Source: Saprospirales bacterium (GTDB lineage: Bacteria; Bacteroidota; Bacteroidia; Chitinophagales; Saprospiraceae). From it: a DNA stretch of 64,000 bases. Both the position numbers and the translations under genes were made by a program. The stretch lies in assembly GCA_007695145.1 (NCBI GenBank), contig REEI01000041.1, positions 19,339 through 83,338 of the forward strand, written 5' to 3'. Below, piece after piece: positions 24,701-30,175 of this stretch. The notes beneath the pieces are model-generated. The model did not search any database. It worked only from the letters and a program-made list of their open reading frames with translations, and had not been told where the DNA came from. Each line of letters starts with the position of its first letter. The stretch's first letter is position 1.

Positions 24701-25282
24701 ATGCGATTCGCAGAACTCAAAAAATATGTTTTAAATCTCCTCGAAAGGGATTTAAATCCCAAGCTGACCTACCATGGAGTACATCATACTGAGGATGTTC
24801 TGTCGGTTACCAGAAAGTATATCGATATTTTTTCAATTGAGGAGCGAGAAGCTCTATTGTTGGAAACCGGAGCACTCCTCCACGATACCGGTTTTCTTAA
24901 TACCTACAAAGATCACGAAGAAGAAGGTGCCAGGATCGCATCCCAATTATTGCCCGGCTTTGGATTTGATTCGAGCCAGATTTCAATTGTGAATGGATTG
25001 ATCATGGCAACTAAAGTTCCGCAGCAACCCACAAACCTTCTGGAGCAAATTATTTGTGATGCAGACCTGGATTATCTCGGTCGTGAGGATGTTTACGCCA
25101 TTAGTGAAACCTTGTTTATAGAACTTCAGCATTTCACTCCTCTTAAAGAAAGAGGTGACTGGGACAAAGTTCAGATTAGCTTTTTGAAGAGCCACAGTTT
25201 TCATACGGATTGGGCTATAGAAAACCGAAAGCCCGGAAAAGAGAAATATTTGGCTGAGCTCTGTCTGCGCACAGACAGGTAA
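24701..25282 (+). CDS. HD-domain phosphohydrolase
   Basis: A 193-residue soluble protein with the HD superfamily metal site: an upstream HH pair (GVHHTEDV, about residues 28-29), the HD pair (ALLHDTGFL, 61-62) and a later Asp (CDADLDYLG). The family removes phosphate from nucleotides or cleaves cyclic nucleotides. It ends 13 bases from the end of the cyclic-nucleotide-binding gene, pointing toward it; a link to cyclic nucleotide turnover is tempting but is only inference from position. Confidence 0.85.
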   Translation: MRFAELKKYVLNLLERDLNPKLTYHGVHHTEDVLSVTRKYIDIFSIEEREALLLETGALLHDTGFLNTYKDHEEEGARIASQLLPGFGFDSSQISIVNGLIMATKVPQQPTNLLEQIICDADLDYLGREDVYAISETLFIELQHFTPLKERGDWDKVQISFLKSHSFHTDWAIENRKPGKEKYLAELCLRTDR

Positions 25283-25295
25283 TTATTGAATCCGT

Positions 25296-25730
25296 TCAGC
25301 TCTTGAGTCTTGCGATTTCTTCATTGAGTGAAATGATTCTCCTGATCAATACCTGAATAATTTCACTGAGGATTTCAGACTTTTCATAAAGTAAGTCCAT
25401 GAAGTAATCCCTACCAATTATATATACTATACTGTCTTCTAGAGTTGAAACTGAGGCTGTTCTGGGGATGGGGGTCAGCAGGGCAAGTTCTCCGACTATT
25501 TCATTTGCTCCCAATTGGGCAAAGACACTGTCTCCGTCGTGTACTTTTACTTTGCCGGACTTGATAATGTACATGCAATCACCGATTTCTCCTTTTTTTA
25601 TAAACTCCCTACCTGCCGGGATTTCTTCAAATTCCATGATTCGAGCAATGTCCAAAAGAGAGGCCTCCGGCAAGTTTTCAAAAACAGAGACCGTTTTTAG
25701 CGAAAATACTTTGTCAATCAGAAATTCCAT
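25296..25730 (-). CDS. Cyclic nucleotide-binding domain protein
   Basis: A 144-residue protein that is one cNMP-binding domain. It has VFSLKTVSVFENLPEASLLDIARIMEFEEIPAGREFIKKGEIGDCMYII, then VKVHDGD and the phosphate-binding cassette IVGELALLTPIPRTASV. The Arg at the usual ligand position (PRTASV) is retained. No DNA-binding domain follows, so it is not a CRP-type regulator. Its ATG overlaps the end of the NTT-HEAT gene by 17 bases, which implies coupled translation and probably a joint function. Confidence 0.9.
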   Translation of the reverse strand: MEFLIDKVFSLKTVSVFENLPEASLLDIARIMEFEEIPAGREFIKKGEIGDCMYIIKSGKVKVHDGDSVFAQLGANEIVGELALLTPIPRTASVSTLEDSIVYIIGRDYFMDLLYEKSEILSEIIQVLIRRIISLNEEIARLKS

Positions 25731-28533
25731 AAGCGTTGTTATAATTTGATAATTCCTGCTGAATAATATCAGAATCTACTTCCCTAAGTAATTTAAGCTG
25801 TGCTGTTGGCAAGGGAAGTTGATGTTGGTTGTATTCGCGAATCAGAAGGCCACACAGCCAGTGGCTTACACACAGCTTTTCGGTATTTAACAAGCAACTC
25901 AAAAGGTCAGTTTTTCCCATCTCCCAATCTGAACGCAACCAGTCTGATGCGGATTCCGGTTTGAATTCGAGAATGGGGCTGACAAAATTGCTGAGATGGG
26001 AACTGATGTTATTTTCCAGTAATTCTATCGCATTGACATTCATTAAATGGTCACCCATCAGCAGGCTGTCTTCGGCTTTTTGAATCAAACTTTTGCCATA
26101 GATGAGGGCCAGGATTCTCAATACTCTCAATTGCTGAAGCCTGATTTCAGAAATAATGGAGTGCCGAAGTTCAGGACTTATTACCTTTCTGCCCAGACAG
26201 GAAGTGAGGTGATTGAAGGTTTTGTGCTCTAATTGAATCAAGTCTCTTAGCAGTTCAATCTTCTCCGGTTCGGTCTCAACAAAATTCCTTTTGAAGAGCG
26301 AGTATACAGCTGTCTCCCTCAATTCAAAATCAGGATCTGAGAGATAGCCTTCTAAAAGGCTGATGGACTGATTGCCTGAAATACTCCCTGCAATTTTTAT
26401 AAGTCTGTTCAGCACCAGATGATGGTGAGCTTTCTCCAGTTCTGATTTTAGGTATGGAACAACTTCATCTCCAAAGGCCTCCAGGGCATTTACCGCCGCT
26501 TTGTACAACTCACCTGAAATAGCAATATCTATTAAATGGGGAATCAGGTGACGATTTCCAACCTTGGAAGTCGAGTAAATTGCTTCACCCTTTACTCTTC
26601 GATCGGGGTCTTTGAGTAGTTTTATGAGCGGGTGGTAAAACTCCTTTTTTTCAACCAGCCCAATTATTCTTGCAGCTGATAGCCTTTCAGCAGGGTCGGG
26701 TGAATCTACCCAGGCCAAGAGAGGACCACCATAATTTGTTGCCCCGTAAATGCCTGCATATTTTAAAATACCTGCTATTAGATTCTCTTTTTTCGCCCCC
26801 TTTGCAGATTTAATGTCATCCTGTAGTTCCTGAACACTCTCTGCCTGTACTAAGGAGCAATACATAAATATTGCTTTTCTGCTAACTCGTTCATTGGGGT
26901 GATCTATCAGCACTCTGATGTAGGGTAGGTATCTTTCGTCCCGAATTTTTGCAATGATATCAATGGTTTCCGCCACTACCAATGGATTGTGGTCTTCAAG
27001 CAACTGGATAACCATTTTGTGCCTCTGATGAACGCTCAAGTCGCGAGCCGAGAGTTTAAGTTTATACAGTACGGCAATAGAGTCACTCCCCAATTTTACC
27101 TGGTCTTCAAGCACACTCATTTCCTCACGGGTAAATATCATGGAGTCGCTGGAAAGCAATCGGTTTTTCAAAAGAAAGTGGATGAGTTCGCTATATTTTT
27201 TACCTAGGTAATAACCACAAATAATCCAAAGCCCAATTGCAGCAGTTAGACAGATGATTATGTACTTCAACTCGAAAATGCCGAGACTGCTTAGTGAAAG
27301 GAGTATCAATCCTGAGAAGCCCAGACCAATGGGTTCCATATAGCCCTTGGCCAGGGTGTGACTTTCTAGACGCCTGTGCTTATCCAGAGGTTGAAATAAT
27401 ATAAAATAAGCGGGTAAGTGAATGGATGAACGGATGATCTCATCCAAAAGCATAAGGAGCCCAAATATCCAGAGCAAAAAAATCAAATTGTTCTCCACCA
27501 ACATTAATCCCATCAGTCCCACAAGAGTAACAATACCTAATGTTACCGGCAAAATCAGGATCATTTGCCCAATTTTTAGCCTCCAAAAAAGCCTGCTGAA
27601 TAAAATGGTCTTCTTGAGGAGGTTCAACAATTTTCCAAAGCTGAAAAAGAATCCAAAAAAGATGGCCAGCTGATCAACATCATTGAAGTGTACTTCAACC
27701 CGTTCCAAAAATGAATAGTGAATCAGATATAGCACCAGTGTGGATAGCATGGCGAAAATACCTGCCAACCTAAAAAATGGGTCCTTCAATTTTTTCTGCA
27801 AAAACCCAAATACTTTAAAACCTGACTGCCTGTGCACATCCTCGTGCTTGTGGTCTTGACTGGAGTGGTGGTGGTCGTGAGGAATTTCCAGTTTTTCAGA
27901 GTTTCCTCTGGAGAGCAAATAAAGGCAGACAAAGGACAAGCCAAAACTGATGGCCGCAAAGGTAAAAAGGTCTTGTATGGAGAATAAGACCACAATTATA
28001 GGAGTAAAGAGATAACCCAGTACCTTCCCGACAGATTCACCAGTGGTCAGGAGCCCAAAAAGTCGCTTACTTTGCCTGACATCATATAAGAGCGAGGCCA
28101 CCCCCCAGAATTCGAGATTGCTCAATTGGTAAACCACCAGGTATAGGGCATAAAATAGTACGATCAATTCCAGAGAGGAAGGAAAATTATTTACTGCCCT
28201 TGCTCCAAGGGCCCAAACCATACAGAACACCAGGACAAAAGCAAAGAGCTTAACCGGAGGTAATTTAGCCTCAAAAATCGAATAAAGCCTTCCAGAAAGC
28301 AGTAGTAAAAAGCCTGATATAAAATAGATCAATGGCAGCATTCCAATGCCGTGCTGATCAATTAGGTGAATGTTAATGGCGGAAAATGACAGAGCAATTC
28401 CAAGTGCATTGAAGAACGAATGCCCAAGAAGTTTTAGGAAGTCGGGCAACTCTACTTCTTTAATCTGGAATAACCTAAGGAATACTTCTGTTTGCATGGC
28501 AATGCTGAATCGCTCATTTGTAAGCCCAAACAT
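25714..28533 (-). CDS. NTT-like nucleotide transporter with HEAT repeats
   Basis: A 939-residue protein. Residues 1 to about 460 form about 11-12 transmembrane helices resembling the NTT/ATP-ADP translocase family (FWGVASLLYDVRQSKRLFGLLTTGESVGKVLGY). A His/Asp-rich cytoplasmic loop (HDHHHSSQDHKHEDVH) lies near residue 225. From about residue 490 come helical HEAT-like repeats (VVAETIDIIAKIRDERYLPYIRVLIDHPNERVSRKAIFMY, AERLSAARIIGLVEKKEFYHPLIKLLKDPDRRVKGEAIYST). Fusions of NTT with HEAT repeats, some also with a cNMP domain, are known from memory in free-living bacteria. Here the cNMP domain is a separate overlapping gene. Substrate and function are unproven. Confidence 0.78.
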   Translation of the reverse strand: MFGLTNERFSIAMQTEVFLRLFQIKEVELPDFLKLLGHSFFNALGIALSFSAINIHLIDQHGIGMLPLIYFISGFLLLLSGRLYSIFEAKLPPVKLFAFVLVFCMVWALGARAVNNFPSSLELIVLFYALYLVVYQLSNLEFWGVASLLYDVRQSKRLFGLLTTGESVGKVLGYLFTPIIVVLFSIQDLFTFAAISFGLSFVCLYLLSRGNSEKLEIPHDHHHSSQDHKHEDVHRQSGFKVFGFLQKKLKDPFFRLAGIFAMLSTLVLYLIHYSFLERVEVHFNDVDQLAIFFGFFFSFGKLLNLLKKTILFSRLFWRLKIGQMILILPVTLGIVTLVGLMGLMLVENNLIFLLWIFGLLMLLDEIIRSSIHLPAYFILFQPLDKHRRLESHTLAKGYMEPIGLGFSGLILLSLSSLGIFELKYIIICLTAAIGLWIICGYYLGKKYSELIHFLLKNRLLSSDSMIFTREEMSVLEDQVKLGSDSIAVLYKLKLSARDLSVHQRHKMVIQLLEDHNPLVVAETIDIIAKIRDERYLPYIRVLIDHPNERVSRKAIFMYCSLVQAESVQELQDDIKSAKGAKKENLIAGILKYAGIYGATNYGGPLLAWVDSPDPAERLSAARIIGLVEKKEFYHPLIKLLKDPDRRVKGEAIYSTSKVGNRHLIPHLIDIAISGELYKAAVNALEAFGDEVVPYLKSELEKAHHHLVLNRLIKIAGSISGNQSISLLEGYLSDPDFELRETAVYSLFKRNFVETEPEKIELLRDLIQLEHKTFNHLTSCLGRKVISPELRHSIISEIRLQQLRVLRILALIYGKSLIQKAEDSLLMGDHLMNVNAIELLENNISSHLSNFVSPILEFKPESASDWLRSDWEMGKTDLLSCLLNTEKLCVSHWLCGLLIREYNQHQLPLPTAQLKLLREVDSDIIQQELSNYNNAYGISD

Positions 28534-28756: not shown

Positions 28757-29050
28757 TCACTGTACTACAATTTTTTCAACCACCGGACGACCCAGTAATT
28801 CATTTACTTTTTTCAACAGTTCCGGTTTGCTCATGCTCAGTTCAGAGCGAAGGGAAGCAGACTCCACCTTGATAAATAAGTTGCCATTTTTAAGGTGTAT
28901 TCCCTTAGTGTTTTCATTAATTATGGAACCCATGGATTCCCGCCACCATTTTCTGATTAAAAACTCATTGTAGCCCGGTTCGACTTTATTGCTTTGGGAA
29001 ATTTTCTTCAACATATCACCCAGCAAATGCTCGTTTGATTTCTTCATCAT
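28757..29050 (-). CDS. DUF721 / DciA-like protein
   Basis: A 97-residue soluble protein with the DUF721 pattern: an N-terminal helix, WRESMGSIINENTKGIHLKNGNLFIKVESASLRSELSMSKPELLKKVNELLG, and a final strand. The family includes DciA, which loads the replicative helicase in many bacteria that lack DnaC. It starts 12 bases after recF ends, an arrangement common for DUF721 genes. The DciA role is inferred from the family, not shown in this organism. Confidence 0.85.
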   Translation of the reverse strand: MMKKSNEHLLGDMLKKISQSNKVEPGYNEFLIRKWWRESMGSIINENTKGIHLKNGNLFIKVESASLRSELSMSKPELLKKVNELLGRPVVEKIVVQ

Positions 29051-29062
29051 AAGTCGTCTATT

Positions 29063-30175
29063 TTATTGGTCCACAATACTGTTGATCTCTCCATCGCTGA
29101 TCAGAAAGATCGTAAATTTCTCATCCATATTCCCAACCGAATCGGTCAGCCTTTCAGCATTGGTGTCCGTTATGAAAATCTGACCCTGGGTGTGATCCCT
29201 CACCAGAGAGAGGAACTCTGAGGCCCTTCTTTTATCCAGACGATCAAACAAATCGTCAAGTAGGAAAGCCGGTTCTATTCCAAGCCGCTCTCTTATCAAA
29301 CTGTGGCCAGCCATTTTTAAAGACAATACTGCCGATTTCAATTGCCCCTGTGAGGCCACATCTCTTATTTTTTTATTGATCAATGTGAATTCCAGATCAT
29401 CTTTGTGAACACCGGTATGGCTTCGTCCCATTATCCGATCTCTCTCTGTACACCGGGCGGTAAGCTCACCGTAATTCCCTTCCTGTAATTGCGAGCGATA
29501 TTGAAAATCAACCGACTCAGCTCCACCTGACAACTTGGTATAATACTGCTCAAAAAAGAAGCTCAAACGTTTGCAATATTCCGTTCGCTTTTCGAAAATC
29601 AGGTGAACATGGGGATAGATTTTATGATCATATGTCTGCAACAGGTCCCAATCGACCCTTCCGTCTTTTTGAGATTTTTTGAGCAGGGCATTTCTCTGTC
29701 GAATTAATTTTCCGTAGTGAATCAATGCTTCCAGATAGGTGCCATCTATCTGTGAAAAGGTGATGTCCAGAACTCTTCTCCGCTCTTTGCTGCCCGAAAG
29801 CAGTAGGTCGATGTCCTGAGGTATCACACTGACCACTGGGTACCTGCCGACATGATCTCCGAGCCGGCTGATTTTTTTGTCGTTCACCTCCAGTGCTTTG
29901 CCTTTTCCAGATTGGTATTTGATGACGATTTTGTCCTCCTCACCCTCCGAATCTGCAATGGCTTCAAGCCTAAAAAAGGTAGCCCCATCCATGAGATAAG
30001 CTTGATCGGTAGAGGTAGTAAGGCCCTTTCCTACAGCGAGAAAATGAATGGCATCCAAAACGGTGGTTTTTCCCGATCCATTTCCTCCGGCTATTCCCAC
30101 AATGCGCCGGCCGAGGTCAAATGAGCTGAACGCGTGATTCCTGAAATTCGTCAAACTAAGTTTCCTGAATTGCAC
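29063..30175 (-). CDS. recF: DNA replication and repair protein RecF
   Basis: A 370-residue ABC-type ATPase. Walker A is GGNGSGKTTVLDAI (about residues 30-43); the signature region and Walker B are near SQGQLKSAVLSLKM and PAFLLDDLFDRLDKRR. The first residues QFRKLSLTNFRNH are the RecF start. RecF helps load RecA at single-strand gaps through RecOR. The first codon is GTG at 30175-30173, with no nearer ATG. It leads a minus-strand pair with the DUF721 gene. Confidence 0.95.
   Translation of the reverse strand: MQFRKLSLTNFRNHAFSSFDLGRRIVGIAGGNGSGKTTVLDAIHFLAVGKGLTTSTDQAYLMDGATFFRLEAIADSEGEEDKIVIKYQSGKGKALEVNDKKISRLGDHVGRYPVVSVIPQDIDLLLSGSKERRRVLDITFSQIDGTYLEALIHYGKLIRQRNALLKKSQKDGRVDWDLLQTYDHKIYPHVHLIFEKRTEYCKRLSFFFEQYYTKLSGGAESVDFQYRSQLQEGNYGELTARCTERDRIMGRSHTGVHKDDLEFTLINKKIRDVASQGQLKSAVLSLKMAGHSLIRERLGIEPAFLLDDLFDRLDKRRASEFLSLVRDHTQGQIFITDTNAERLTDSVGNMDEKFTIFLISDGEINSIVDQ

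Follow-up and report, generated by a model that had tools for sequence, protein, structure and literature searches.

Membrane proteins in which an NTT-type half is joined to HEAT repeats (NTT-HEAT proteins) have been described before. Major, Embley and Williams (2017; PMC5381601) reported both a separate gene for a cyclic-nucleotide-binding domain (cNBD), lying a few nucleotides downstream of the NTT-HEAT gene, and a fusion of all three domains, and they proposed cAMP-tuned uptake of ATP. The same paper records NTT-HEAT proteins in chlamydiae and oomycetes and calls the fusions functionally uncharacterised; it makes no mention of an HD or cyclase gene at an NTT-HEAT locus. Among the NTT translocators themselves, AtNTT1 has four charged residues that matter for the transport of ATP and ADP: K155, E245, E385, and K527 (PMC3306366, PMC10654386). 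Two further systems invite comparison, namely bacterial cyclic-nucleotide-gated channels of the MlotiK1 type, where a cNBD controls a membrane protein, and the class I (HD-type) cyclic-nucleotide phosphodiesterases.

The locus considered here lies in a 64,000-nucleotide stretch of DNA from a Saprospirales bacterium, referred to as the window. It has the same domain order as the systems of 2017, in which the cNBD is fused or encoded immediately downstream, with the difference that its NTT-HEAT protein falls below the Pfam NTT model. The first-pass annotation had presented the arrangement as little described; as the 2017 paper covers both the pair and the idea of control by cAMP, the pairing must be regarded as known in its essentials. 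What is added here, relative to the open-licence literature (where we found no report of an HD-cyclase or NTT-HEAT-HD link), is the loss of the exchange residues and the association with HD and cyclase genes. The explanation that we favour, and consider reasonably probable, is that the locus encodes a cyclic-nucleotide-controlled membrane protein of the NTT family with a docking sensor and an HD phosphodiesterase of its own.

Layout of the locus and its sensor

The NTT-HEAT gene (25714..28533, minus strand) encodes a protein of 939 amino acids with Pfam matches to HEAT_2 (4e-22) and MFS_1 (1e-8). It is followed on the same strand by the gene for a stand-alone cNBD protein of 144 amino acids (25296..25730; PF00027, E 2.6e-19; alignment A3), and the two overlap by 17 bases (25714..25730, minus strand), an overlap that is specific to this genome. 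On the plus strand, an HD-domain hydrolase of 193 amino acids, a candidate cyclic-nucleotide phosphodiesterase (24701..25282; PF01966, E=4e-6, and motifs), is convergent with the cNBD gene and separated from its stop codon by a gap of 13 bases. The ORF positions and sizes, the overlap, and the gap all agree with the first-pass annotation. The latter also had the HD gene pointing at the transporter; the convergence and the short gap stand, but the gene on which it converges is that of the sensor and not directly that of the transporter.

Directly upstream of the module, on the same strand, are a dciA-like gene and a gene for a RecF/SMC-type ATPase (window 28757-30175), a neighbourhood that is kept in five other members of the genus with enough sequence. 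The right third of the window consists of a single ORF of 7259 amino acids (41644-63423, plus strand).

That the small protein is a cyclic-nucleotide sensor, as had been proposed, is supported by the PF00027 match and by an intact pocket motif with both the Glu and the Arg of the cassette. The phosphate-binding cassette GELALLTPIPRTASV (cNBD residues 80-94; 25449..25493, minus strand) includes E81 and R90, which are invariant in 10/10 near relatives (alignment A3). Its G/E/R/A are conserved, and across a wide set of cNBDs the G is present in 73/75, the E in 71/75, and the R in 69/75. One might think of a CRP/FNR transcription factor, a candidate that was rejected because the 144-amino-acid protein has PF00027 as its sole Pfam match, with no DNA-binding domain and no C-terminal helix-turn-helix. 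The cNBD is similar in sequence to that of the MlotiK1-type channels; unlike in those channels, the sensor is encoded by a separate gene and the effector has an NTT/MFS fold.

The HD gene and class III cyclases

The HD gene belongs to the NTT-HEAT/cNBD module: a member of its family is found next door, in three orientations, in 29 of the 58 loci with enough flanking sequence, the other half being without one. The HD gene is downstream and convergent in 20 cases, upstream and co-directional in 8, and upstream and divergent in 3; two loci carry two HD genes each, and the outer flanking genes vary among the HD-bearing loci. In a tree of 39 NTT-HEAT proteins (from a short tree search, with long branches flagged), loci with the convergent arrangement are spread over the window's genus and several further families, and those with the upstream arrangement make up one clade.

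The motifs YHG..HT, HDTGF, HE, and DADLDYLG are conserved in the HD family, and the metal-binding residues H25, H29, H61, D62, H72, D120, and D122 are invariant in 19/19 members. The protein shares the YH...HT.DV and HD motifs of the class I phosphodiesterases, and its family gives weak PDEase_I matches in profile and fold searches; it differs from them in its length of 193 amino acids and in falling below the Pfam threshold, and should be treated as a candidate enzyme. The predicted model (pLDDT 97) retrieves generic HD hydrolases first and PDE4, PDE6, and PDE10 weakly, with no decisive subfamily. The closest solved relatives, 2pq7 and YpgQ, are HD hydrolases that are not assigned to cyclic-nucleotide breakdown, which favours a reading in which the substrate of the HD protein is some other nucleotide (e.g., a nucleoside triphosphate or whatever the membrane protein transports) and not the second messenger, the rest of the module being unchanged. 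Such a reading concerns the HD step only and is compatible with our explanation elsewhere. The weak PDEase_I profile matches in 7/19 members (best E 0.001; the window member is not among them) count against it, and so does the company that HD domains keep at other loci, where they are fused behind class III cyclases and paired with cNBDs; we judge it somewhat unlikely.

This company was seen in HD genes away from the module, examined within the same order. At L056 and L061 a class III cyclase domain is followed immediately, in one chain, by the HD domain; at L066 and L069 a cyclase gene has the HD gene as its immediate downstream neighbour. When 62 HD domains were picked by HD score alone, with most genera represented (L081-L140), a class III cyclase was present within flanks of ~3 kb in 32 of them, mostly just upstream and on the same strand. 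Genomes of this group contain 1-12 class III cyclases each, so such proximity would be expected by chance at roughly 1% (an estimate). Two of the 32 cyclase-flanked loci also carry a cNBD, in one case fused to the HD domain. At L133 and L138, which have class III cyclases but no NTT-HEAT gene, an HD domain adjoins a cNMP-binding domain or is fused to it.

The two settings of the HD gene meet in genus g97, where the single HD gene adjoins the module in some species and a cyclase in others, and at loci where the set is complete. L142 and L143 each have two cyclase genes, then an HD gene that is convergent with cNBD and NTT-HEAT; in Flavisolibacter ginsengisoli DSM 18119 (L211; L147 is probably the same organism), cyclase, HD, NTT-HEAT, and cNBD follow one another in one direction; and a further locus (L198) combines a cyclase, an NTT-HEAT-cNBD fusion, and HD. 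The genome of the window has two TPR-class III cyclases, both on other contigs. The suggestion of the first-pass annotation that the hydrolase could degrade the signal thus gains from the fusions and adjacencies with class III cyclases and from the complete sets, which tie the HD gene to cyclic-nucleotide metabolism.

At HD-containing loci of the same order (L052-L055, L058-L059, L063, L069), the HD family is also often fused to, or found next to, a YitT-type membrane protein that carries a DUF2179 domain and may be a second membrane effector with ties to HD and cyclase genes.

The membrane half

The membrane half (approximately residues 26-455; 27169..28458, minus strand) has a divergent NTT/MFS fold with 12 predicted transmembrane helices, as judged by the family profile and Foldseek. 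In Pfam, the sequence of the window protein alone does not match PF03219, the model of the NTT family (TIGR00769), and its match to MFS_1 (1e-8) is marginal. We therefore rely on profile A6, an alignment of 23 membrane halves from the clade of the window protein, which was searched against all 177,635 distinct PDB sequences. The only matches were the two ATP/ADP translocators of solved structure, AtNTT1 (2.1e-13) and CpNTT1 (6.5e-13), and up to E=10 the search gave no match to any other MFS protein. A plain MFS transporter, which the MFS_1 match might suggest, was accordingly dropped, given that the family profile finds NTTs alone among PDB chains.

A sister group without the sensor leads to the same place. 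Its profile again gives AtNTT1 and CpNTT1 in the PDB, one member matches PF03219 (1e-10), and in a profile-profile comparison it matches the clade of the window protein at E=4e-43. The AlphaFold2 model of the NTT-HEAT protein (mean pLDDT 81.6) has 12 long helices in the membrane half, then paired helices; the best five Foldseek hits by E-value are all NTT chains, and other MFS folds rank after these with weaker E-values and similar TM-scores. The NTT-type membrane half named by the first-pass annotation is upheld by the agreement of the family profile with the Foldseek ranking, and membership of the NTT superfamily appears well supported. A PF03219 search of the organism's own genome gave no match, to which little weight should be attached, since the control genomes also lack the family. 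The HEAT-repeat region (approximately residues 469-865; 25939..27129, minus strand) is recognised by Pfam HEAT_2/HEAT and by Foldseek matches to alphaRep and importin.

Compared with AtNTT1 and CpNTT1 (PDB 9j3j-9j3o), the window protein is alike in fold and sequence profile and has in common with the NTT translocators the motif FWG.A ... K[RK].F/Y; it differs in having an added HEAT domain and sensor and in lacking the equivalents of K155, E245, E385, and K527. In the 9j3j chain, where residue numbers are lower by 84, these residues appear as K71, E161, E301, and K443. In HMMER alignments, Y70 stands opposite K155, H272 opposite E385, and L404 opposite K527; E245 has no acidic counterpart, the stretch ahead of W143 being hydrophobic or gapped. 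None of the four exchange-linked charged residues is retained in the window protein; therefore, ATP/ADP exchange is not predicted. Where the first-pass annotation spoke of an NTT-like transporter, nucleotide transport proper must, with these four residues missing, be considered doubtful. The clade alignment conserves other positions instead, including E28, R153, K156, R157, Q381, P382, and R388.

The loss of all four AtNTT1 residues fits a different role as well, in which the NTT half, no longer a transporter, serves as an anchor in the membrane or a receptor for a ligand, and the module is a signalling complex whose HEAT platform gathers the cNBD, the HD protein, and perhaps a cyclase at the membrane. 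That signalling enzymes are encoded alongside would suit such a role, as would the higher conservation within the genus of the cNBD (56-72%) than of the NTT-HEAT protein (39-47%). However, an anchor sits less easily with the full 12-helix fold of the AlphaFold2 model and with the conserved charged positions (E28, R153, K156, R157, and R388), which suggest a working cavity or gate; K156-R157 is common to the window protein and CpNTT1. We hold the anchor or receptor to be unlikely.

Pairing across genomes and the proposed circuit

NTT-HEAT proteins are present in many free-living bacteria; 84,980 species genomes were scanned, and the best 80 homologues span Bacteroidota, Desulfobacteraceae, Chloroflexi, SAR324, Poribacteria, Latescibacteria, and others. 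Among these 80, the cNBD is adjacent and on the same strand in 39 and fused to the HEAT C-terminus in 28; a contig end truncates six loci, and seven have no cNBD within 200 bases, four of the latter having one 361-621 bases downstream. The sensor is thus adjacent or fused in 67/74 loci not interrupted by a contig end, and in 7/7 relatives of the same genus the cNBD gene directly follows the NTT-HEAT gene. In the tree of NTT-HEAT proteins, the fusion L049 is nested among split relatives, and therefore fusion appears to have arisen more than once. Short intergenic distances are common in bacteria, and an ordinary operon of functionally unrelated genes kept adjacent by shared regulation only is nevertheless very improbable, given adjacency or fusion in 67/74 loci from several phyla, the nested fusion, and the retention of the HD gene in different orientations.

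The repeated co-occurrence that the first-pass annotation looked for is therefore found, independent fusions included, and two of its details have to be given up. It took the split state to be unusual, and 39 split loci stand against 28 fused ones. It also read the overlap as translational coupling: in relatives of the same genus, the NTT-HEAT stop codon lies 4-10 bases before the ATG of the cNBD gene (across the order, the spacing ranges from -17 to ~+30), which rules out the long overlap as a conserved coupling device.

A second NTT-HEAT subfamily of distant homologues (L013-L018) matches NTT structures by profile and lacks a cNBD, which shows that not all NTT-HEAT proteins have the sensor. 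A gene of 305-333 amino acids lies just upstream in 5/6 of these loci, and several have a convergent gene of 376-404 amino acids downstream. L019, a contig fragment, was not accepted as a relative of the transporter: its match is weak and covers query residues 475-652 alone, within the HEAT part.

Our explanation starts from features established at the level of sequence, namely NTT ancestry, HEAT repeats, an intact pocket motif, conserved adjacency or fusion, and an HD link to both the module and cyclases; from these we infer the ligand, the docking, the gating, the HD substrate, and any substrate of transport. The divergent NTT member would sit in the inner membrane with its C-terminal HEAT solenoid in the cytoplasm. 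A class III cyclase, encoded elsewhere in the genome of the window and at the same locus in some relatives, would make a cyclic nucleotide, and the co-expressed stand-alone cNBD would bind it as cAMP or cGMP. The ligand-bound cNBD may then dock on, or detach from, the HEAT solenoid, whereupon the NTT-like membrane part would change state, and the neighbouring HD protein would hydrolyse the cyclic nucleotide and reset the switch. That many relatives have the cNBD fused onto the end of the HEAT region is the strongest indication of contact between the two. Counted against this explanation are the lost exchange residues, the missing PF03219 match, the absence of the HD gene from half of the loci, and a Foldseek ranking of the HD protein that favours general HD hydrolases, with phosphodiesterases found weakly.

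More tentatively, and at somewhat less than even chances, these genes may form a widespread, complete, and movable circuit of cyclase, HD phosphodiesterase, cNMP sensor (fused or separate), and a membrane effector derived from NTT that has lost ATP/ADP exchange and is switched via HEAT docking, a biochemically undescribed type of effector. With a cNMP sensor, a probable phosphodiesterase and, at some loci, a cyclase travelling alongside NTT-HEAT, the vague idea of cAMP-tuned transport becomes a defined four-protein set. The presence of a sensor, a degrading enzyme, and sometimes a signal-making enzyme at one site hints at a self-contained signalling unit. If this is true, the HD proteins would be a candidate family of bacterial HD-type cyclic-nucleotide phosphodiesterases, and Bacteroidota would have an output of cAMP that is neither a channel nor a transcription factor.
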